Origin: Planotetraspora silvatica
GTDB lineage: Bacteria > Actinomycetota > Actinomycetes > Streptosporangiales > Streptosporangiaceae
Length of the DNA: 64,000 nt
Reading direction: 5' to 3'
NCBI RefSeq assembly: GCF_016863315.1
Contig: NZ_BOOQ01000015.1
Span: 124,001 to 188,000, forward strand
Under the pieces are notes generated by a model. It was not told the DNA's origin. It ran no database searches and saw nothing but the letters and a program-made list of their open reading frames with translations. This document shows, one piece after another, positions 26,242 to 36,925 of this stretch; positions within the stretch are counted from its first letter, which is position 1; every line of letters starts with the position of its first letter. Made by a program: the position numbers and the translations under genes.

Positions 26242-27603
26242 TCAGGTCCTGTTCCCGTTTGGGCGGATATTCTCGTGATCTGCGTCACTATCCTCCCCGG
26301 TATCCGATTCGGCGGCTCGGCGCAGTTGCGCCGCCGTGACGTTCCACAGAAACGGTACGGTCAGCGCGGCCACCGCCACGGCGAAAACGGCGAAGGCCAC
26401 GCGGAGTCCGTAGACCTCGGCGAGCACCCCGGCAAGCGCCGCGCCGAGGGGCAACGTCCCCCATCCGAGCAGGCGGGCCGCCGAGCCGTACCTGCCGAGG
26501 AGGCGGTCGGGCACGAGGGCCTGCGCGATCGTCCGGGAGTTCACCGTCCAGAGGGTGCCGCCCATTCCCCCGGCGAACGCGGCGACGCCGACGGCCCAGG
26601 CGACCGGGAACACCGCGGGGACGACCATCATGAGGAAGGTGCCGACCAGGTCGGCGAACAGCGCCCATCGCACGCCCAGCAGCCGGTTGACCACGGCGGT
26701 CAGCCCCGCGCCCGCGAGCCCGCCCAGGCCGATGGCGCTGATCAGCAGGCCGTATCCGCGGGGATCGGCCGCCAGCACCGCGGTCGCGTAGGACGGCATG
26801 AGCGCCAGCCACGCGCTCCACGCTCCCGCGAGAACGGTGATCGTCAAGGAGAGGGTCCGCAGCAGCCGGTCGCGCCACAGGAACCGCAGTCCCTCCCCGA
26901 TCTCGGCGATCACGCCCGCCACGCCCTCCCGCGCCTCGGGCTCAGGCTCGGACGCGAGCCCATCGGCTCCCCGGTGGACAGGCCGGAACGAACCGGCGAG
27001 CAGCGCGATCAGCACGGCCCCCACGGCGAACGCCGCGGCCGAGGAACCGAGGGCGAGCGCGGCCCCGACGCCCACGAGCAACCCGCCGACCGCCGGCCCG
27101 CAGAATTCGTTGGCCAGGGTCTCCACGCCGGCGATCCACGCGTTCGCCCTGGCCCGGCGTCGCCGCGGGACGGCCGCGGGCACGACGGCGCCGGTGGCCG
27201 TGTTGGCCACGACCTCGGCGGCGCCGATGACCAGTCCCGCCGCGTACAGGACCGCCATGGACAGCCCGTCGCCGGTGGCGACGACGAGCAGGGCCAGCGC
27301 CGTGACCAGGCGCACGAGGTCGGCGAGGATGATCAGCCGCCGCCGGTCCGCCCGGTCGGCGAGTACGCCCACGGGGAGCGAGACGAGCAGCCAGGGCAGG
27401 GTGAGCGTGAGCCCGACGACGGCCACCTGTCCAGGAGTACCGCCGAGCCCGACGGCCAGCAGCGGCAGCGTGATCTTCAGGACGCCGTCGGCCATGTTCG
27501 TCATCGCCGTGAAGGCGACCAGCACGACCTCGTTGCGGCCGGAGCGCGATCTCTCCTTGTCCGGGGACGCGACCAGGGCCTGATTCGCCGGTGTGTCGCT
27601 CAC
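26242..27603 (-). CDS. MFS transporter (drug/metabolite efflux type)
   Basis: A 453-residue, twelve-segment major-facilitator protein with GTG start after GGAG. The loop between helices 2 and 3 carries a motif-A-like GVLADRADRRRLIILADLVR, and the overall pattern (VAFTAMTNMADGVLKITLPLLAVG at the start) resembles the MFS_3/enterobactin-exporter-like group of efflux pumps. It is divergent from a CGNR-type regulator with a long palindrome in the 81-base gap between them, so expression is probably induced by a ligand of that regulator. Substrate unknown. Confidence 0.88.
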   Translation of the reverse strand: MSDTPANQALVASPDKERSRSGRNEVVLVAFTAMTNMADGVLKITLPLLAVGLGGTPGQVAVVGLTLTLPWLLVSLPVGVLADRADRRRLIILADLVRLVTALALLVVATGDGLSMAVLYAAGLVIGAAEVVANTATGAVVPAAVPRRRRARANAWIAGVETLANEFCGPAVGGLLVGVGAALALGSSAAAFAVGAVLIALLAGSFRPVHRGADGLASEPEPEAREGVAGVIAEIGEGLRFLWRDRLLRTLSLTITVLAGAWSAWLALMPSYATAVLAADPRGYGLLISAIGLGGLAGAGLTAVVNRLLGVRWALFADLVGTFLMMVVPAVFPVAWAVGVAAFAGGMGGTLWTVNSRTIAQALVPDRLLGRYGSAARLLGWGTLPLGAALAGVLAEVYGLRVAFAVFAVAVAALTVPFLWNVTAAQLRRAAESDTGEDSDADHENIRPNGNRT

Positions 27604-27622
27604 GGCACTCCAAACCTTCTAT

Positions 27623-27657
27623 CCACTTAGACGGTTAGAGGCTAACCGTCTAAGTGG
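27623..27657. promoter_or_regulatory. Palindromic operator between the MFS and CGNR genes
   Basis: CCACTTAGACGGTTA (27623-27637) and TAACCGTCTAAGTGG (27643-27657) are perfect 15-bp arms separated by five bases. It fills the divergent promoter region and is positioned to control both genes at once. The CGNR protein encoded on the right is the probable binder. Confidence 0.8.
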
Positions 27658-27684
27658 TTTGATGGAAGACATGAAGGCAGGACG

Positions 27685-28227
27685 ATGAACATGACCGAGC
27701 CGTCCCGGCATGCGGCGCTGATCCGCGATTTCGCCAACACGGTGGACGTCGAGGAGGGCACCGACACGATCACGTCGCCCGAGGGACTGGCGGCCTGGCT
27801 GCGGGAACAGGGGCTCTCCCCCGGCGGTGTGGACGAGGCCGCCCACCGGCAGGCGATCGTCCTGCGCACCGGCCTGCGGGCCCGGCTGCTGGCCAACAAC
27901 GCCGGGGCGGCCGATCCGCGGGCGATGGAGGAGGCCCAGGCCGTACTGGACGGACTCCCGCTCAGGGTGCTCCTCGGGACGGAGCACGAGCCGGGCGAGC
28001 CCCTGCGCGGCGCCGGGCCGCTCGCCGCGATCGGCGCTGCGTGGGCGCTCGTCGTGGCCGGCGGGGAGTGGCGGCGGCTCAAACAGTGCCCGGACCATTC
28101 GTGCGAGTGGGTGTTCTGGGACGCCACCCGGAGCCGCACCCGGCGCTGGTGCACGATGCGGGTCTGCGGCAATCGCGCCAAGTCGCGGGCGTACGCCGAT
28201 CGCCAGAAGGCGGCACGCGACACCTAG
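27685..28227 (+). CDS. CGNR zinc-finger / ABATE-domain regulator
   Basis: A 180-residue protein. The N-terminal ABATE-like region (RDFANTVDVEEGTDTITSPE) is followed by a helical middle and a C-terminal zinc finger with CPDHSCEWVFWDATRSRTRRW and then C-x4-CGNRAKSRAYADRQK. CGNR proteins are DNA-binding regulators, often of the transporter next to them. Here it is divergent from an MFS pump across a strong palindrome, which supports local control of efflux. An internal ATG two codons later is an equally possible start. Confidence 0.87.
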   Translation: MNMTEPSRHAALIRDFANTVDVEEGTDTITSPEGLAAWLREQGLSPGGVDEAAHRQAIVLRTGLRARLLANNAGAADPRAMEEAQAVLDGLPLRVLLGTEHEPGEPLRGAGPLAAIGAAWALVVAGGEWRRLKQCPDHSCEWVFWDATRSRTRRWCTMRVCGNRAKSRAYADRQKAARDT

Positions 28228-28326: not shown

Positions 28327-29049
28327 ATGACAACGCCTTTCGTCATGGACGGGCCATGGGCCCATCGAGATGAGTTCCGCCGGTTACGGCATGCGCTGCG
28401 TGCCGCCATGAGAGGAGCAGCCATGTGGCAGGACGAGCATCACAATCCCGGTCCGCACGAGCATCGGCACAGGGGCGGCCACCGGGGGCGCGGCCCGTGG
28501 GGCGGCTTCGGGCCGGGCGGGCCGTTCGGACCGGGAGGACCGTTCGGACCGGGCGGCACGCCGTTCGGCCGAGGGTTCGGCAGGCCCAGGAAGGCCAAGC
28601 GCGGTGACGTCCGCGCCGCCATCCTCGCGCTGCTCGCCGAGGAGCCCCGCAACGGATACCAGATCATCCAGGAGATCGCCGAGCGCAGCGAGGGCGGCTG
28701 GAAGCCCAGTCCCGGCGCCGTCTACCCGGCTCTCCAGCAGCTCACCGACGAGGGCCTGGTCCGCACCGAGGAGACGGACGGCCGCAAGACCTTCCAGCTC
28801 ACCGAGGCCGGCCGCGCGTACATCGAGGCCCACCCGGACGAGGTGCGAGCCCCCTGGGAGGACATGACTCCGGACATCGGGGACAACGTCCACGAGCTGT
28901 TCGACCTGTCCCGTCAGGCCGCCTCGGCCCTGTTCCAGCTCGCGCAGACCGGAACCGACGGCCAGGTGAGGCAGGCCAAGCAGGTGCTGACCGAGACGCG
29001 GCGCAAGCTCTACCAGATCCTCGCAGACGGCGACCCCGCCGAGGAGTGA
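28327..29049 (+). CDS. PadR family transcriptional regulator
   Basis: A 240-residue protein starting at ATG 28327 with AAGGAGG nine bases upstream. The first about 75 residues are unusual: a His/Arg-rich stretch (residues about 35-55) and a Gly/Pro/Phe repeat (GGPFGPGG repeated). The PadR winged helix follows (RAAILALLAEEPRNGYQIIQE, then PSPGAVYPALQQLTDEGLV), and then a helical dimerisation region. PadR proteins repress efflux or stress genes. It is followed four bases later by a DUF1707 gene, probably in one transcript. The low-complexity segment is typical of actinobacterial PadR homologues. Confidence 0.9.
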   Translation: MTTPFVMDGPWAHRDEFRRLRHALRAAMRGAAMWQDEHHNPGPHEHRHRGGHRGRGPWGGFGPGGPFGPGGPFGPGGTPFGRGFGRPRKAKRGDVRAAILALLAEEPRNGYQIIQEIAERSEGGWKPSPGAVYPALQQLTDEGLVRTEETDGRKTFQLTEAGRAYIEAHPDEVRAPWEDMTPDIGDNVHELFDLSRQAASALFQLAQTGTDGQVRQAKQVLTETRRKLYQILADGDPAEE

Positions 29050-29053
29050 CGAA

Positions 29054-29590
29054 ATGGCCTCTCAGGACGAGATGCGGATCGGCGACAAAGAGCGCGACGA
29101 GGTGACCCGGAGCCTGCACGACGCGTTCGTGCAGGGCCGGATCACCCGCGACGAACTCGACCAGCGCCTCGACGCCACCCTTTCCGCCCGCACCGCGGGC
29201 GACCTCCGGCAGATCACCGCCGACCTCCCGGGCGCCTACGTGCCGTACGGCCCGGGCACCACGCTTCGCGACCCCGCCCCCGGACCGCACGCAATGCCAT
29301 GGGAGGGCGGGCCGCCCTGGCGCCGGGATCACGGAGACCTCGCGACCTGGGGAGTGCACCTGGCCGCGGCACGCCGGCGGGCCCACCGCGGGCATGCTCA
29401 CCGGGGCAGGCCTCCGTTCCCGTTCATGGTCATCGGGGCGCTGGTGCTCCTCGCGGTGCTGACCGGTGCGGCATGGCCGCTGTTCGCCGTGATCAAGGTC
29501 CTGTTCCTCGTCTGGTTGATCATGACCGTGGCGGGCCTGATCCGTCACCGCCGCGGTCACGGACACCGGCGGTCCGGAATTGGGTCTTGA
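29054..29590 (+). CDS. DUF1707 domain membrane protein
   Basis: A 178-residue protein starting four bases after the PadR stop. The N-terminal 55 residues are a DUF1707 domain (MRIGDKERDEVTRSLHDAF, then GRITRDELDQRLDATLSARTAGDLRQI). A His/Arg-rich linker leads to one or two membrane helices near the C terminus (FMVIGALVLLAVLTGAAWPLF). Function is unknown; co-occurrence with PadR is common in actinobacteria. Its last codons and stop lie in the first copy of a 22-bp direct repeat that flanks the ThiF-like gene. Confidence 0.85.
   Translation: MASQDEMRIGDKERDEVTRSLHDAFVQGRITRDELDQRLDATLSARTAGDLRQITADLPGAYVPYGPGTTLRDPAPGPHAMPWEGGPPWRRDHGDLATWGVHLAAARRRAHRGHAHRGRPPFPFMVIGALVLLAVLTGAAWPLFAVIKVLFLVWLIMTVAGLIRHRRGHGHRRSGIGS
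29569..29590 (+). repeat. Direct repeat copy A flanking the ThiF-like gene
   Basis: These 22 bases (core CGGAATTGGGTCTTGA, 29575-29590) recur at 30846-30867 with one mismatch. Copy A is the 3' end and stop codon of the DUF1707 gene. The two copies bracket the ThiF-like gene. They may be a duplicated promoter element or the scar of an insertion. Confidence 0.75.
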
Positions 29591-29741: not shown

Positions 29742-30845
29742 GTGCTGCTGCCACGGGTCAAGCGGAGGCACGAGCCGCACCGGCTCGACGACGGCACCGT
29801 GCGCATCGGAGGCGAGATCTACGGGCTCGCCTCCGAGATCACCGATCCGCTCGGGGGGGCGTGGGCCGCGCTGTCCCTGATGGACGGCACGCGGACGCCC
29901 GACGACATCGCCGAGATCATCTGTGGCTCCGTGCCCGGCCTCTCGGCGCCGGAAGCGCGCGAGATCGTGAGCATCCTGATCGATTCCGGCCACGTGGAGG
30001 ACGCGTCCGCCCAGGTGCCCGACGAGATCAGCGTGCGGGAGCGCGATCGGTACGGCAGGAGCCAGGCGTTCTTCCACCTCGTCGACCTGACCCCGCGCCC
30101 GCACGCCTGGGAGGCCCAACTGCGCCTCAAGAAGGCCCGGGTCGTGGTCCTCGGTCTCGGCGGGACCGGCAGCCACGCCGCGTGGGCGCTCGCGGCGACC
30201 GGGGTCGGGCGCATCCACTGCGTCGACGCCGACGTGGTGGAGTTGTCGAACCTCAACCGGCAGGTCCTCTACACCGAGGACGACATCGGCCGCATGAAGG
30301 TCGACATCGCCATGGAGAGGTTGCGCCAGCTGAACTCCGACATCGAGATCACCGGCGAGAGCCGCAGGGTGGACGGCGAAGCGGGCCTCCGGCTCCTCCT
30401 CGAGGACTGCGACGTGCTCGCGTTGTGCGCCGACGAGCCGCGAGGGCGCGGCCTGGCCGAGGGGATCAGCATCTGGGCCAACCGCGTCTGCGCGAGTCTG
30501 GGCGTTCCCTGGGTCGGGGGTGGATACAACGGCCCACTGGTCACCGTGGGAACGTTCGAACGCGGGCGCGGAGCCTGCTTCGAGTGCCTCATCGAAGGGG
30601 AGGCACGCAGGCGGCGGCCCGATCTTCCCGTGGACCTCGGAGGGCCGGGCGTGCTGGCCATATCGGCCGGCATCTCCGGTCAACTCGTCGCCCATGCGGT
30701 CATCTCCTTGATCACCGGCGTGCCTCAGCCCACGACGGGAACGTTCCTGGGGCTGAACCTCATCGCCCCCGAGCACCACGTATGGGTCCGCCACCCGCCG
30801 CGCCCCGACTGCCCCGTGTGCGCGCCCTCCGGCCTGACCGCGTGA
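29742..30845 (+). CDS. ThiF/MccB-like E1 adenylyltransferase with N-terminal peptide-recognition-like domain
   Basis: A 367-residue protein, GTG start after GAGGGG. Residues about 5-95 resemble a winged PqqD-like peptide-recognition element (TVRIGGEIYGLASEITDPLG... then REIVSILIDSGHVEDA). The E1 core follows: GLGGTGSHAA (from about G138) binds ATP, then VDADVVELSNLNRQ with the conserved Asp and Arg, and IGRMKVDIA with the lysine. Two CxxC pairs (C279/C282 and C357/C360) form the structural zinc site. This layout is that of MccB, which adenylylates the C-terminal Asn of the microcin C precursor; TOMM-associated ThiF proteins are also similar but would need a YcaO partner, absent here. A 41-codon peptide gene follows. 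Confidence 0.82.
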   Translation: MLLPRVKRRHEPHRLDDGTVRIGGEIYGLASEITDPLGGAWAALSLMDGTRTPDDIAEIICGSVPGLSAPEAREIVSILIDSGHVEDASAQVPDEISVRERDRYGRSQAFFHLVDLTPRPHAWEAQLRLKKARVVVLGLGGTGSHAAWALAATGVGRIHCVDADVVELSNLNRQVLYTEDDIGRMKVDIAMERLRQLNSDIEITGESRRVDGEAGLRLLLEDCDVLALCADEPRGRGLAEGISIWANRVCASLGVPWVGGGYNGPLVTVGTFERGRGACFECLIEGEARRRRPDLPVDLGGPGVLAISAGISGQLVAHAVISLITGVPQPTTGTFLGLNLIAPEHHVWVRHPPRPDCPVCAPSGLTA

Positions 30846-30867
30846 GCGGTACGGAATTGGGTCTTGA
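30846..30867 (+). repeat. Direct repeat copy B flanking the ThiF-like gene
   Basis: This copy matches 29569-29590 at 21 of 22 positions and begins directly after the stop codon of the ThiF-like gene, 83 bases before the peptide gene. If it is a promoter element, both the enzyme and the peptide gene would carry it. Confidence 0.75.
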
Positions 30868-30949
30868 CCGGTCGTGGCCCACGGCGAAACATCAACCTGT
30901 CGCTTTCGGGGGGAAACGGGCGCGGCCACACCGAACAACGGAGGGCGAG

Positions 30950-31075
30950 ATGCACCCGACCGAGGCAGAGCCCGAGCCAGAGGACCGGAACGAGCGGCAG
31001 GCCACCACGAAGATCCTGATCAGAAAGCTGGACACGACGGAGACGACCGTGTGCAGCAACTCCACAGGGAACTAA
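30950..31075 (+). CDS. Candidate modified-peptide precursor (41 residues, C-terminal Asn)
   Basis: A small gene with ATG at 30950 and GGAGG (30940-30944) five bases upstream, 104 bases after the ThiF-like stop and 105 before the DUF6879 gene. The product has an acidic N-terminal half (MHPTEAEPEPEDRNERQ), a basic hydrophobic middle (TKILIRKLD) and a Thr/Ser-rich tail TTETTVCSNSTGN with one cysteine. This leader/core-like polarity, the neighbouring E1 enzyme and the C-terminal Asn fit a ribosomally made peptide whose end is adenylylated. Reality of the gene rests on its ribosome binding site and context; the modification is inference. Confidence 0.6.
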   Translation: MHPTEAEPEPEDRNERQATTKILIRKLDTTETTVCSNSTGN

Positions 31076-31084
31076 GACCACCAC

Positions 31085-31099
31085 GTTCGTCAGACGAAC
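31085..31099. promoter_or_regulatory. Inverted repeat just after the peptide gene
   Basis: GTTCGTC-A-GACGAAC lies nine bases after the stop of the 41-codon gene. It could be a short hairpin (GTTCGT, CAG loop, ACGAAC) at the message end or a protein-binding site ahead of the DUF6879 gene. Confidence 0.4.
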
Positions 31100-31180
31100 C
31101 GCGGCGAGGTTCCACATCCGGGCTGGGGCCTCGACGCGGGTCCCACGACTCGATCTCGGCGTACAGCCGGAGGAGACCCC

Positions 31181-31795
31181 ATGCCCGGAGAGGCGATCGA
31201 ACGCGTCAGACAGGCCGCAGGAGTGATCCTGCCCGTCACCGACTACCTCGCGGAATTCTACGAGTGCTTCCAGGACGTCGAGGGAGTCGTCTGGAAGCTC
31301 GAACGAGCGCAACACTTCCACGAGCCGGACGTGCCGAGCTGGGTCGCCATGATGGAGGGCGACTGGCGCCGCGCCCTGACGCTGATCAAGGAGATGCGCT
31401 TCTCCCGCGATCTGCCGTCCCAGATCCAGCTCCGCCGTCTGCGGATCGTGGAGACGCCGCTCACGCCGTACATGCACTGGGAGTTGGTGCTGCTCGCGGC
31501 GCGGACCCGCGCGGGTGAGCGGGCCCGTGTGCTGCCCGCGCCGGCGGTGCGATGGCTGGAGCGCGACGCCCCGCTTCCCGAACTGGTGATCCTGGGGCCC
31601 GATCTCATGTACGAGGTGCTCTACGACCGGACGGGCGCCCACACCGGAGGGCGGCGGATCACCGACCCTCGCGTGATCGAGGAGTGCGTGGGCATCATGG
31701 CCGAGCTGTACGGCACGGCAGAAGAACTGCTCGACCACTACGAACGGGAGGTCGTCCCGTTGCCCCCGCCGGTGATCAGCCCGGTCTCCTCCTGA
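31181..31795 (+). CDS. DUF6879-like protein
   Basis: A 204-residue protein starting at ATG 31181 with CGGAGGAG upstream. The stretch VVWKLERAQHFHEPDVPSW, then RRLRIVETPLTPYMHWELVL and PELVILGPDLMYEVLYD, fits the actinobacterial DUF6879 group, of unknown function, often beside small regulatory or peptide genes. Here it follows the candidate precursor in the same direction and is likely part of that cassette, perhaps as an accessory or immunity factor; this is inference. Its last 58 bases overlap the convergent DNA-glycosylase gene. Confidence 0.65.
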   Translation: MPGEAIERVRQAAGVILPVTDYLAEFYECFQDVEGVVWKLERAQHFHEPDVPSWVAMMEGDWRRALTLIKEMRFSRDLPSQIQLRRLRIVETPLTPYMHWELVLLAARTRAGERARVLPAPAVRWLERDAPLPELVILGPDLMYEVLYDRTGAHTGGRRITDPRVIEECVGIMAELYGTAEELLDHYEREVVPLPPPVISPVSS

Positions 31796-32437: not shown

Positions 32438-32525
32438 TCACAGACCCGGGTCGACGGGCTCGGGCTCCAACGCCAGCACGGATCACAGACGCGGGTCGAC
32501 GGGCTCGGACTCCAGCGCCAGCACG
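32438..32525. repeat. Tandem duplication of the pnkp 3' end
   Basis: Two 43-base copies (32438-32480 and 32483-32525) match at 40 positions with a 45-base period. The right-hand copy is the last codons and stop of pnkp (VLALESEPVDPRL); the left-hand copy lies beyond the stop in the same frame and would read VLALEPEPVDPGL plus its own stop. A 15-codon terminal duplication has therefore occurred. Confidence 0.85.
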
Positions 32526-34966
32526 GCGAACACCGTCTCGTGCACGCGCCACAGCGGGTCGCCCTCGGCCAGGCGGGTGAGCGCCTCCAGCCCGAGGGCG
32601 TGCTCGCGCGACGCCAGCGACCGCTTCTTGCCGAGGAAGCGGCCGCGCAGGTCGCCGAGCGACTCCGTGTAGTCCGGGCCGTAGATGATCCGCAGGTACT
32701 CGCGCCCGCGCACCTTGATCCCCGGCTGCACCCGGCCGGGCGTGTGCTCGACCGGCTTGACGACCATGCCCTCTCCCCCGCCTGCGGTCAGCTCCGACCA
32801 CCAGCCGACCGCGGCCGATCGCTCCTCCTCCGAGTCCAGCGACACGTACACATGCCGGGTCGGCGCGAGGATGCCGGAGCTCAGGCGCCCGAGCACGTCC
32901 AGATGCCACGAGTGCGGTTCGAGCACGGCCGTCGCCCGGCCCTCGCAGGCCAGGATCTGGAACGGCGCGAGCCGTACGCCGTCGAGCCCGGAAACCGGCC
33001 AGCAGTACCGCGCATAAGCGTCGCGGAACAGGGCAGCGTTGTCCGCACGGCGTCGGGTGCGGTCCAGTAACCCGCCTACATCCAGGCCGCGCCCGGCCGC
33101 CGTCTCCAGGAGCGCCACCGCCTCGGGCAGGGCGACCCGCGCCGCGGCGCCGACGGAGGCGTACTGGTCGCGGATCAGCCCCTCCGCCTTCGCCGACCAG
33201 GGCAGCAACTCGCAGTCGAGCACCACCCAGTCGGTCTCCAGCTCGTCCCAGAGCGGGCTCACCGCGTCGCGGAGCCGGTCGACGAGCTCCCCGGTGAGAG
33301 CGTCGAAGAAGGGCCGCCCGGTGCGCGTGTAGACGCTGCCGGTCGTGCCGTCCGTGACGCCGAACCGCTTGGCCGCCGCCTCGGGGGTCCTGGCCAGTAC
33401 GGCTATCGCCCGCGATCCCATGTGCTTCTCCTCGCACACGACCCGGGACACGCCCGCCCTGGCGTATTCATCGAACGCCTGGTCCGGGTGCTCGAGGAAG
33501 CCGTCGAGCGCCGAGGTCTCCGGCGGGGCCATGGTCGGCGGAAGGTAGACGAGCCAGCGGGGGTCCACGGAGAACCGGCTCATGATCTCCAGCGCCGCCG
33601 CCGAGTTCTCCTCCGCGATCTTGACGCGCCCGCCGTACCTGGTCTCCACATACCGCGTCCCGGTCACGTCGCCGATGTCGAGGACTCCGGGATCCCGGGC
33701 GTACTGCGACGTGAGCGGCCTGACCGGCTCGTACCAGACCTTCTCCGCCGGGACCGAGACGATCTGCCGCTCGGGGTAGCGGAGCGCGGTCAGGCTTCCG
33801 CCGAACACGGCTCCCGTGTCCAGGCAGATGGTGTTGTTGACCCACTCGGGCTCCGTGGTCGGCGTGTGGCCGTAGACGACCATCGCGCGCCCCCGGTACT
33901 CGTTCGCCCACGGGTACCGGACCGGCAGGCCGTACTCGTCGGTCTCGCCCGTGGTGTCGCCGTAGAGCGCGAACGAGCGGACCCTGCCGGACGCGCGCCC
34001 GTGGTAGGCCTCCTTGAGCCCGGCGTGCGCGACGACGAGGGCGCCGCCGTCGAACCGGTAGTGGCTGATGAGGCCGTCCATGAACGCCTTCGCGGCGTCC
34101 CGGAAGTCCTCGGGCTCGGCGGCGAGCTGCTCCAGCGACTGCTCCAGGCCGTGGGCGACCCGGACCTTGCGCCCGTTGAGCGCGCGGACGAGTTTCTGCT
34201 CGTGGTTGCCGGAGACGCACAGCGCCGTCCCCGCCTCGACCATGCCCATGACCAGGCGCAGCACGCCCGGGGTGTCGGGGCCGCGGTCGACCAGGTCGCC
34301 GACGAACACGGCCGTCCGTCCTTCGGGGTGGACGGCGCCCGTGGGCGTCACCGTCCAGCCGAGGGTCCGCAGCAGGGTCTCCAGCTCGGAACGGCAGCCG
34401 TGGACGTCGCCGATGATGTCGAAGGGACCGGTGAGCTCGGTCCGGTCCGACCACGCCCTCTCGTAGGTGATGACGGCGTCGTCGATATCGTCACCGCGCA
34501 GCACGTGAACCCGGCGGAAGCCGTCCCTGTTGATCTTGCCGAGCGAACGGCGCAGGTCCTTCCTCTGACGGGTGACGACGTGCGGGCCGAAGGCGCGGTC
34601 GGGCCTGGCGGCGTTGCGGGCGATCGCCACCTCCTCAGGGACGTCGAGCACGATCGCGTCGACCAGCACGTCATGGCTCTTGGCCAGCTCGATGAGCTTC
34701 TTGCGGGCCTCCCACTGGACGTTGGTCGCGTCGACGACCGTCAGCAGGCCACGCCTCAGCCGGGTGCCGACGATGTAGTGGAGGACGTCGAAGGCGTCGG
34801 GCGTGGCCGACTGGTCGTTCTCGTCGTCGGAGACCAGGCCACGGCAGTAGTCCGAGGAGATGACCTGGGTGGACGCGAAATGCCGGGCGGCGAAGGTCGA
34901 CTTCCCGCTGCCCGAGATCCCGACGAGCACCACCAGTGCCATCCGCGGAACACCGATCTCAATCAC
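32483..34966 (-). CDS. pnkp: Polynucleotide kinase-phosphatase-ligase of the Pnkp/Hen1 RNA-repair system
   Basis: An 827-residue trifunctional enzyme. The start GTG 34966 has GGAGGGG five bases upstream. The N-terminal kinase has Walker A GISGSGKST; the central metallophosphatase shows GDVHGCRSE, GDLVDRGPDT and GNHEQ; the C-terminal adenylyltransferase has K514 in EEKHMGSRA (KxxG motif). It heals 5'-OH and 2',3'-cyclic phosphate ends and forms part of the ligase with Hen1, repairing tRNAs cut by ribotoxins. Hen1 lies upstream in the same orientation, but array copy 2 is inserted between them. The presence of Hen1 indicates repair with 2'-O-methylation that resists re-cleavage. Confidence 0.93.
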   Translation of the reverse strand: MIEIGVPRMALVVLVGISGSGKSTFAARHFASTQVISSDYCRGLVSDDENDQSATPDAFDVLHYIVGTRLRRGLLTVVDATNVQWEARKKLIELAKSHDVLVDAIVLDVPEEVAIARNAARPDRAFGPHVVTRQRKDLRRSLGKINRDGFRRVHVLRGDDIDDAVITYERAWSDRTELTGPFDIIGDVHGCRSELETLLRTLGWTVTPTGAVHPEGRTAVFVGDLVDRGPDTPGVLRLVMGMVEAGTALCVSGNHEQKLVRALNGRKVRVAHGLEQSLEQLAAEPEDFRDAAKAFMDGLISHYRFDGGALVVAHAGLKEAYHGRASGRVRSFALYGDTTGETDEYGLPVRYPWANEYRGRAMVVYGHTPTTEPEWVNNTICLDTGAVFGGSLTALRYPERQIVSVPAEKVWYEPVRPLTSQYARDPGVLDIGDVTGTRYVETRYGGRVKIAEENSAAALEIMSRFSVDPRWLVYLPPTMAPPETSALDGFLEHPDQAFDEYARAGVSRVVCEEKHMGSRAIAVLARTPEAAAKRFGVTDGTTGSVYTRTGRPFFDALTGELVDRLRDAVSPLWDELETDWVVLDCELLPWSAKAEGLIRDQYASVGAAARVALPEAVALLETAAGRGLDVGGLLDRTRRRADNAALFRDAYARYCWPVSGLDGVRLAPFQILACEGRATAVLEPHSWHLDVLGRLSSGILAPTRHVYVSLDSEEERSAAVGWWSELTAGGGEGMVVKPVEHTPGRVQPGIKVRGREYLRIIYGPDYTESLGDLRGRFLGKKRSLASREHALGLEALTRLAEGDPLWRVHETVFAVLALESEPVDPRL

Positions 34967-34972
34967 GACAAC

Positions 34973-35016
34973 CCCTCCCACAACCCATTAGTGGCCCTCC
35001 CACAACCCATTAGTGG
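34973..35016. repeat. 22-bp tandem duplication at the pnkp ribosome binding site
   Basis: The 22-base unit CCCTCCCACAACCCATTAG followed by TGG occurs at 34973-34994 and identically at 34995-35016. On the coding strand each copy ends in the GGGAGGG of the pnkp ribosome binding site, so that site is doubled. The second copy touches the first motif of repeat array 2. Confidence 0.85.
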
Positions 35017-35420
35017 TGATCATGCACACCTTCGCCAAACCCCCCACCCACCAGCCCCAACGCCCCCCGTGATCATGCACACCTTCGTGACCATGCCACC
35101 CCACGCGCGCAAACGTCTGCCGTGATCATGCACAGGTTCGGCGGCACCCGGCCTGACCAGCCCAAACCTCCGTCGTGATCATGCACAGATTCGTTGTCGC
35201 ACGGTTCCACCTGGCCGAACTCATTTCGTGATCATGCACGCACCCGATCGGTGCCAGATCACGAAGGACATCTCCGCAGCCAGGAGCGGGTGCGCACGAA
35301 TCCGCGCATGATCACGATCCGCGCCCGCGCCGGTCAGGGGGTGATTCCACGAACCTGTGCATGATCACCACCCATGAAGGGGGAGGCCATCCTCATGATC
35401 ACCGAATCTGTGCATGATCA
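35017..35420. repeat. Inverted array of 53-bp-period repeats, copy 2 (4 forward, centre, 3 reverse)
   Basis: Forward motifs begin at 35017, 35070, 35123 and 35176 (the first two read TGATCATGCACACCTTCG), and the centre begins at 35229: every step is 53 bases. In the centre TTCGTGATC (35225-35233) pairs with GATCACGAA (35257-35265), and GCACC/GGTGC inside. Reverse motifs end at 35314, 35367 and 35420, each 53 bases apart and 53 from the centre end (35261). The last reverse motif lies in hen1 and encodes its final residues DHAQIR plus the stop. The array separates hen1 from pnkp. Confidence 0.9.
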
Positions 35421-36925
35421 CGGCGAGGGGGTTGGGTGGGGAGGTGGAAGACGGCCATTTGGGTGGGCGGGCCCACTTCTGGGTCGTCCTCCCCCACCGG
35501 CCTGAAGGTCACCTCGTACCCGTACGCCTCGCAGACTCCCGCCGCCCACGTGGTGAACTCGGCCCTGGTCCATTCGAACCGGTGGTCCGGATGACGCCTG
35601 CGTGAGGGCCCGCCATCCGTATCCGCCAGGCCTTCGTATCGGACGTTGTACTCCACGTTGGGCGTGGTCACGACGACATGGCGCGGCCTGGCCACCCCGA
35701 AGACCACCCGCTCCAGAGCGGGAAGCCGTGGCGGGTCGACGTGCTCGACGACTTCCATGAGAACGGCCGCGTCATGTCCGGCGAACCGGGCGTCCGTGTA
35801 CGTCAGCGACCCCTGGAACAGCTCCAGGCGCGCCCGCTTGGCGTCCGCCATGCGCTCCAGCTTGAGCTTCCGCGCGGCCATCGCGAGCGCCCGCGCCGAC
35901 ACGTCCACCCCTGTGATCTTGGCGAACGACGGCCGGCTCAGCAGCGCCGACACCAGTTGCCCCGGACCGCAGCCGAGGTCGATCACGGAACGGGCGCCGA
36001 TCTCCTCCAGCACCGACACGACCGCGTCACGCCGAATGGTGTTCAGTGGTGTCCGCGGCTCGAGGACCGGAAGCTCCTCAGCCTCAGCCACATCACCGGC
36101 CGCGGTCGGCGCATCATCGGCGTCGTCGACGGACGGCGCCTCCGTGATCTCCTCCTCGGAGGGCGGCTCCAGCGACTCCTCGACGTCGTCGCCGATCTCG
36201 GCCAGGCGGGCGAAAGCCGTACGGGCCAGGGCCCAGCGGCGGCCGAGGTAACGGCGCGTGATCAGCACGCGCTCCGGATGGGCGCCCAGCCAGCCGCCGC
36301 CCGCCCGGATCAGCTTGTCCACCTCGTCGCCCGCGATCCAGTAGTGCTTGGCGTCGTCCAGCACAGGAAGCAGCACGTACAGATGGTTGAGCGCGTCGGC
36401 CAGGCGGACCTCGCCGCGCAGCGTCAGCCGGACGTAGCGCGAGTCGCCCCATTCCGGGAAGTTCTCATCGAGCGGCACGGCCGTCGCGTCCACCTGCCAG
36501 CCGAGGGGCTCGAACAGCCTGCGCGCGAGGTCGGCGCCACCCCTGCAGGGCAGCGCGGGTAAGCCGAGTTCCAGGGGGATCGGCCGGTCGGCGAGCTCCT
36601 GCCGGGAGGCACACCGCCCGGTCCTCGCCGTACGGAACACGTCGGCGAGGGCGACCGCGAGCAGCGACGACGCGGCGTACGGCCGGTCGTTGACGTACTG
36701 CCCGAGCGAGAAGTCGGGCGACGACTTCCCGCGGGATCGGACGAGCCGGATCGGATCGACCTCCAGCAGCAGCGCGGCCGTGCACCGATGCTCACTCGCC
36801 TCGGGATACAGGACGCGGGCCGTGCCGAACGACTGGCCGAACTCCTGCACGCGGTCTGGATGCTTGTGCAGGAGGAAGCCGAGATCCGTGGCCGGCGACA
36901 GGGTCGTCGAGATGGTGAGGAGCAC
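35399..36925 (-). CDS. hen1: 3'-terminal RNA ribose 2'-O-methyltransferase Hen1
   Basis: A 508-residue protein, GTG start at 36925, giving the conserved N terminus LLTISTTLSPATDLGFLLHK; the longer frame upstream is spurious. The N-terminal half (about 1-240) is the ligase-activating domain that partners Pnkp. An acidic linker (about 265-310) leads to the methyltransferase, with the SAM motif DLGCGPGQLVSALLS and the Mn-binding segment MEVVEHVDPPRL. It methylates the 2'-OH at the cleaved RNA end before Pnkp seals it. The extreme C terminus (RRDHAQIR) is encoded by the repeat array, not by conserved family sequence. No clear ribosome binding site precedes the start. Confidence 0.92.
   Translation of the reverse strand: MLLTISTTLSPATDLGFLLHKHPDRVQEFGQSFGTARVLYPEASEHRCTAALLLEVDPIRLVRSRGKSSPDFSLGQYVNDRPYAASSLLAVALADVFRTARTGRCASRQELADRPIPLELGLPALPCRGGADLARRLFEPLGWQVDATAVPLDENFPEWGDSRYVRLTLRGEVRLADALNHLYVLLPVLDDAKHYWIAGDEVDKLIRAGGGWLGAHPERVLITRRYLGRRWALARTAFARLAEIGDDVEESLEPPSEEEITEAPSVDDADDAPTAAGDVAEAEELPVLEPRTPLNTIRRDAVVSVLEEIGARSVIDLGCGPGQLVSALLSRPSFAKITGVDVSARALAMAARKLKLERMADAKRARLELFQGSLTYTDARFAGHDAAVLMEVVEHVDPPRLPALERVVFGVARPRHVVVTTPNVEYNVRYEGLADTDGGPSRRRHPDHRFEWTRAEFTTWAAGVCEAYGYEVTFRPVGEDDPEVGPPTQMAVFHLPTQPPRRDHAQIR

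Follow-up and report, generated by a model that had tools for sequence, protein, structure and literature searches.

Organization of the Locus

Planotetraspora silvatica is a soil actinobacterium, and the stretch of its DNA analysed here (64,000 nt, referred to as the window) contains three genes oriented in one direction between positions 29742 and 31795. The first gene (29742–30845, + strand, GTG start) encodes an RRE–ThiF/E1 adenylyltransferase of 367 residues, MccB/PaaA-like and referred to as E1, which matches the Pfam ThiF family (PF00899) with 152.7 bits. The second gene (30950–31075, + strand) is an ORF of 41 codons preceded by a GGAGG ribosome-binding site, whose product MHPTEAEPEPEDRNERQATTKILIRKLDTTETTVCSNSTGN is the putative precursor peptide. 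The third gene (31181–31795, + strand) encodes a DUF6879 protein of 204 residues, presumed accessory, with a match of 107.3 bits to PF21806. Both the ORF calls and the Pfam matches bear out the cassette of E1, small ORF, and DUF6879 gene that had been proposed in an earlier sequence-only reading.

In addition, the first two genes share a 22-nt element present in two copies that are 95% identical. The upstream copy GCGGTCCGGAATTGGGTCTTGA (29569–29590, + strand) lies 151 nt before the start codon of E1, while the second copy GCGGTACGGAATTGGGTCTTGA (30846–30867, + strand), a direct repeat of the first one, is located directly 3' of the E1 stop codon and 82 nt before the start codon of the peptide gene. 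When at most one mismatch is allowed, the 15-mer core GGAATTGGGTCTTGA occurs at two places only in the 8.66-Mb genome, namely before E1 and before the peptide gene. Apart from their proximity, E1 and the peptide gene are thus linked by an element that precedes both and is found nowhere else in the genome. Its position and uniqueness suggest that the element may function as a promoter or operator; a scan with the sigma-70 consensus between 29 and 32 kb of the window revealed no promoter-like site. The shorter sequence ATTGGGYCTTGAC appears once per genome, upstream of the peptide gene, in the genome of the window, in four other Planotetraspora, and in Microbispora siamensis, while in two further genomes searched the copies are on other contigs. 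Moreover, the DNA flanking the second copy of the element is conserved with Microbispora.

The E1 Enzyme

The E1 protein is composed of an RRE (residues 1–90) and an E1 domain (residues 98–363) with a Zn tetrad formed by C279, C282, C357, and C360. In the AlphaFold2 model (pLDDT 89), residues 1–87 are predicted to form strands followed by three helices, which supports a PqqD/RRE-like N-terminus. The full length of the model is matched by MccB (Z 31, 322 residues, rmsd 4.1); PaaA follows with a Z of 27, and both align from residue 1–2 onward. A search of solved structures with the single sequence placed E1 closest to PaaA (PDB 5ff5; 4e-28, residues 4–203, RRE included), MccB, and ThiF, and the profile of the E1 family matched MccB at 3e-48, MoeB at 7e-44, PaaA at 8e-44, and ThiF at 3e-39. 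MccB is, thus, the nearest solved enzyme both by profile and by fold.

In order to compare relatives, 80 E1 loci from the family of the host and 80 from named genomes were gathered, yielding 112 distinct E1 enzymes. The ATP/Mg adenylation site is intact, with its residues conserved in all or nearly all of these relatives: G138, G140, G141, G143, D164, R173, Q174, K186, and D231 are identical in 112/112, as are the zinc ligands C279, C282, and C357, while C360 is retained in 111. The PqqD-like N-terminus, intact ATP site, and two CxxC pairs recognized in the sequence-only reading are therefore confirmed by the model and by this conservation, and its description of an MccB-like RRE–E1 enzyme accompanied by a gene for its own peptide substrate agrees with the profile, the fold, and the gene content of 101 of the 112 loci.

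The Precursor Peptide Family

These 101 loci encode a related short peptide scoring at least 15 bits, a recurrence well above chance; because of it, the 41-codon ORF is a real gene that belongs with E1, in line with the good ribosome-binding site noted at the outset. The remaining 11 loci have no peptide above the cut-off, although two of them (L187 and L218) carry divergent candidates. In the genome of the window, the family profile, which includes the 41-residue peptide itself, matches this peptide (E 2e-16) and nothing else. No NCBIfam model matched any of the 23 aligned precursors, and no Pfam model matched the peptide of the window.

The consensus of the family is IxIR(R/K)L(D/E)KxET(T/A), followed by a tail of 6–13 residues (median 8). 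In the 23-row alignment, L27, E31, and T32 never vary, while the conservation of R25 is 90% or higher. The peptide of the window carries the recognition motif ILIRKLDTTETT in its leader and ends in the tail VCSNSTGN, and the last 20 codons of its gene differ little among Planotetraspora species. Tails in the near clades include SNSTGN, SNSVGN, SNSYGN, SQGNST, SSGNSN, and YSGNSNS, while GLREGG, IERDEG, GGQSG, and CPIHGDC are found in far clades. At least one Ser, Thr, or Cys is present in 87 of 94 parsed tails and none in the other 7; since no residue is common to the tails of the whole family, no single nucleophile can be named. Moreover, two Nonomuraea precursors (L173 and L181; DKVGPT... and DKAGPT...) have lost the conserved Glu, while their tails and the active sites of their E1 enzymes are intact.

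RiPP clusters often hold several precursors, and several loci of this family contain two or three (L130, L212, L219, and L220). Among them, L219 and L220 (Nonomuraea sp. SBT364 and Glycomyces dulcitolivorans) have three different precursors around one E1. In precursors from Streptomyces (L198, L199, L202, L205, L208, and L217), IETI or IETV replaces IETT, and the tails end in KAVSR, KAISR, KHQDG, KQIDS, or KHVDG.

Partner Genes and Apparent Reduction of the Locus

Within 4.5 kb of the 112 E1 loci, an M50-like membrane protein is encoded at 61 and a DUF6879 protein at 47. The HExxH motif is at least 90% conserved among 36 aligned M50-like proteins, whose N-terminus bears a weak resemblance to an RRE (hhalign probability 75%) and whose match to the Pfam M50 family is only below the cut-off. 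M50 proteases are known to act on epipeptides and pearlins (PMC10885120). Likewise, the membrane proteases EpeP (epipeptide) and TglG/TmoG (pearlin) are encoded beside RiPP precursors, as in those 61 loci; however, their clusters rely on radical SAM or PEARL chemistry, and the locus of the window has no protease of its own. A search of the genome of the window, run without a positive control, found no M50 relative. The cassette does not contain a dedicated exporter, and a divergent MFS gene lies 2.1 kb upstream of it.

The gene order is peptide, E1, and M50 in distant clades and mostly E1 and peptide in nearer ones. In Microbispora, the genes after the single E1 are, in order, peptide 1 (...GNST), the M50-like protease, DUF6879, peptide 2 (...SNSTGN), and a second DUF6879. 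Since the peptide of the window and its upstream DNA match Microbispora peptide 2, the Planotetraspora locus looks like a reduced form from which peptide 1, the M50-like protease, and the DUF6879 gene after it are missing. Microbispora also contains solo E1 copies (L108, L109, L113, L115, L119, and L124), 52–55% identical, next to which no precursor, protease, or DUF6879 was detected; their active sites are conserved except for N170D in two of them, and they may act in trans.

Regarding the DUF6879 protein, its model (pLDDT 92) shows a predicted PLD-superfamily/TrmB-effector-like fold with no evident HxK motif, and the best structural matches are PLD-family nucleases and TrmB-type regulators with middling Z values of about 8–10. 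No paper on DUF6879 was found among the open-access papers searched.

Proposed Mechanism and Alternative Readings

E1 very probably modifies chemically the 41-residue peptide encoded beside it. With a probability of roughly 0.7, the locus represents a RiPP cassette in minimal form that belongs to the ThiF-like adenylyltransferase (TLAT) type, in which E1 would adenylate a carboxylate of the precursor. Leader binding, activation site, and product are proposals. The known RRE–ThiF enzymes (MccB, PaaA, GrcB, EnfB, and IndF) all adenylate a carboxylate that is subsequently captured by a nucleophile (PMC12250964, PMC12150305). Firstly, the N-terminal RRE of E1 would bind the conserved stretch of the precursor, as in EnfB, PaaA, and IndF. 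In EnfA, the leader carries a (V/I)RKA motif similar to the IRKL or IRRL found here (PMC12250964, PMC12150305), which suggests that the conserved block serves as a docking strand for the RRE, with the variable tail as the core. Secondly, the E1 domain would use ATP/Mg to adenylate the precursor, most likely at its C-terminal carboxylate, which is the group adenylated by IndF and EnfB (PMC12150305, PMC12250964). C-terminal activation is favoured because the motif is placed at a nearly fixed distance (6–13 residues) from a variable and usually small end. Moreover, the tails have nothing universally in common except a free end, and the two Nonomuraea precursors lack Glu31 while enzyme and tail are intact. 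The acyl-adenylate would then be captured by a nucleophile, most plausibly a Ser, Thr, or Cys side chain of the tail or a backbone amide, so that water is lost and a small ring or another modification of the C-terminus is formed. The M50-like membrane metalloprotease present in many relatives probably takes off the leader or exports the product; since its gene is missing in Planotetraspora, processing would need a protease encoded elsewhere. The DUF6879 protein could play an accessory role as a sensor, a regulator, or in immunity.

The pairs EnfB/EnfA and IndF/IndA of lactic acid bacteria and streptococci also combine a minimal RRE–ThiF enzyme with a short precursor, and the core of IndA starts with EDTT where the family of the window has ETT (PMC12250964, PMC12150305). 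However, enterofaecin and indolylamide cores end in hydrophobic residues (WWIVI or NWYFI), whereas the tails described here are mostly small and polar (SNSTGN, GNSNS), LREGG also being found, and IndP is an M16 protease, while the present loci have an M50-like protease or none.

A possible but unlikely alternative is the activation of a side chain, with E1 adenylating Glu31 (or Asp28) and a Cys, Ser, or Thr of the tail acting as the nucleophile; GrcB activates a Glu in this manner for its thiolactone, and PaaA for a Glu-Glu bicycle. Glu31 is, along with Leu27 and Thr32, the best conserved position of the precursor, and GrcB, an RRE–ThiF fusion of the GRC cluster of Streptococcus that acts on a 39-residue precursor, joins Glu35 to Cys39 (PMC12250964). 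Moreover, the match to PaaA is strong and extends through the RRE, and its substrate PaaP is likewise a precursor with a leader. The profile match to PaaA ends before the second half of E1 with its CxxC pairs, and pantocin A formation takes place at an internal Glu-Glu-Asn, while no equivalent EEN core is found here. The GRC cluster, in turn, includes two radical SAM enzymes and generates a Glu–Cys thiolactone, whereas many tails of this family, SNSxGN ones included, have no Cys, and no radical SAM partner was seen at the locus, as the sequence-only reading had stated. The conserved block IRxLDKxETT resembles a docking strand more than a reaction site, and the loss of Glu31 in Nonomuraea with tail and enzyme intact argues against the Glu side chain as a universal site of reaction.

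C-terminal activation could also be extended to a broader reading, quite unlikely as a whole, in which these loci would form a separate actinobacterial class of E1-modified peptides combining a universal leader motif, diverse C-termini (SNSTGN, GNSNS, LREGG, or Cys-rich), and a C-terminus-activating enzyme. The peptide would thus serve as a scaffold or carrier that can be programmed: its end would undergo cyclisation, conjugation, or thiocarboxylation before being freed by the membrane M50 protease.

Little probability is given to a carrier or scaffold role in the strict sense, where the E1-activated C-terminus takes a small molecule, sulfur, or an amine, and the M50 protease later frees the C-terminal residue. 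ThiF/MoeB-type E1 enzymes classically lead to thiocarboxylates, pearlins and the sulfur carriers ThiS/MoaD serving as models, and the short tails of distant clades end in GLREGG or ALREGG, resembling the ends of sulfur carriers. In addition, the M50 proteases TglG and TmoG cut C-terminal residues off scaffold peptides (PMC10885120). However, the tails are widely varied for a carrier, the M50 gene is absent from the clade of the window, and no sulfurtransferase, PEARL/LanB-like gene, or small-molecule cluster was recognized among the recurrent neighbours, most of which are unannotated by profile.

The sequence-only reading had assigned the locus to a microcin C-like pathway, in which E1 would adenylate a C-terminal Asn and, through a succinimide, end with a nucleotide attached to the peptide as a phosphoramidate, the product being a Trojan-horse antibiotic. 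MccB of E. coli (PDB 3h5n, 6om4) shares with E1 the RRE-like N-terminus fused to the E1 domain, the ATP site, the paired CxxC motifs, and a dedicated peptide, apart from being the nearest solved enzyme, and all Planotetraspora orthologues of the peptide end in ...SNSTGN. Furthermore, longer McC precursors with a leader exist (McC-Yps, PMC10885120), although the usual MccA has 7 residues and ends in Asn (length: PMC6495379), whereas here the peptide has 41 residues, a leader motif, and an end that varies within the family. The small ORF does recur beside E1, but an Asn end is found in only 51 of 102 distinct peptides, while the others end in G, S, A, T, R, D, Q, M, C, or E and their enzymes retain the same active site. 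Homologous small ORFs with other terminal residues are an outcome that the sequence-only reading had itself named as refuting. The Asn end is a clade feature: it is present in 49 of 72 peptides whose E1 is at least 52% identical to that of the window and in 2 of 30 below this value, and a FastTree phylogeny of E1, not rooted on MccB/PaaA, requires at least 8 changes between Asn and other residues, or 21 for the exact residue. Moreover, a single Microbispora E1 adjoins both a ...GNST and a ...STGN precursor. No MccC/D/E/F-like gene was seen at the locus and, in agreement with the initial remark that exporter and immunity genes are not obvious, none resembling MccC, MccE, or MccF was recognized within the interval 27.6–32.5 kb. 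Since the end residue of the precursor varies, membership in the microcin C group is rejected and this chemistry becomes distinctly improbable for the family, although an Asn-specific reaction may occur inside the Planotetraspora clade alone.

Finally, a housekeeping (MoeB/ThiF) or defence (CBASS/Bil-type E1–E2) enzyme with an incidental small ORF and DUF6879 gene has a negligible probability, given that its generic similarity to MoeB/ThiF NCBIfam models reaches no cut-off (best equivalog 140.1 bits vs. 449), that further genes with a ThiF domain, one scoring 283 bits, lie on contig C9 of the genome and are distinct from E1, that PADLOC E1–E2 profiles match the E1 core alone and neither the peptide nor DUF6879, that E2, effector, or deubiquitinase partners are absent, the other neighbours being PadR, DUF1707, and a UDG-family glycosylase, and that the recurrence of the peptide contradicts an incidental partnership.

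The TLAT-type cassette apparently represents an unstudied and undescribed branch of RRE–ThiF RiPPs. The open-access papers searched, taken without supplements, contained no description of the E1–peptide family; the sequence-only suggestion of an undescribed variant may thus hold with respect to novelty, but not as a variant of microcin C. The network of Rajput et al. (2025) comprises 27,400 RRE–ThiF fusions with several unexplored clusters and may include this family. Few RiPP ThiF reactions are known, i.e., nucleotide transfer, bicycle, thiolactone, imide, and indolylamide formation, and none of the characterised examples in the literature covered comes from actinobacteria. The family supplies more than 100 enzyme–substrate pairs together with a leader motif clear enough to guide the design of substrates, and its minimal three-gene version is suited to in vitro work with one enzyme and one synthetic peptide. 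If many C-terminal residues are indeed tolerated, these enzymes would be useful for peptide C-terminal chemistry.

Distribution and Genomic Neighbourhood

E1 homologues at an E value of 1e-30 or better are found in 62 of 201 genomes of the family of the host, while at 1e-40 they are sparse elsewhere (2 of 396 genomes of the phylum, that of the window among them). Named carriers include Planotetraspora, Microbispora, Planobispora, Herbidospora, Sphaerisporangium, Microtetraspora, Nonomuraea, Streptosporangium, Streptomyces, Verrucosispora, Glycomyces, and Crossiella. The E1 of P. mira is 98% identical to that of the window. The PadR and DUF1707 genes upstream of E1 (28330–29590) are retained in Planotetraspora, Microbispora, and Herbidospora, although from one genus to another the identity of the E1 enzymes drops to about 59%, which indicates that the locus is inherited in place.

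Downstream of the cassette, the reverse strand (32483–36640) encodes a bacterial Pnkp with kinase, phosphatase, and PNKP_ligase domains followed by Hen1, an ordinary and intact RNA-repair pair. On the upstream side, a 24-nt inverted repeat (27615–27665), 88% complementary and with a 3-nt loop, is located between the divergent MFS gene (26242–27603, − strand) and a gene for a CGNR zinc-finger regulator (27685–28227, + strand), where it likely constitutes an operator or a hairpin.
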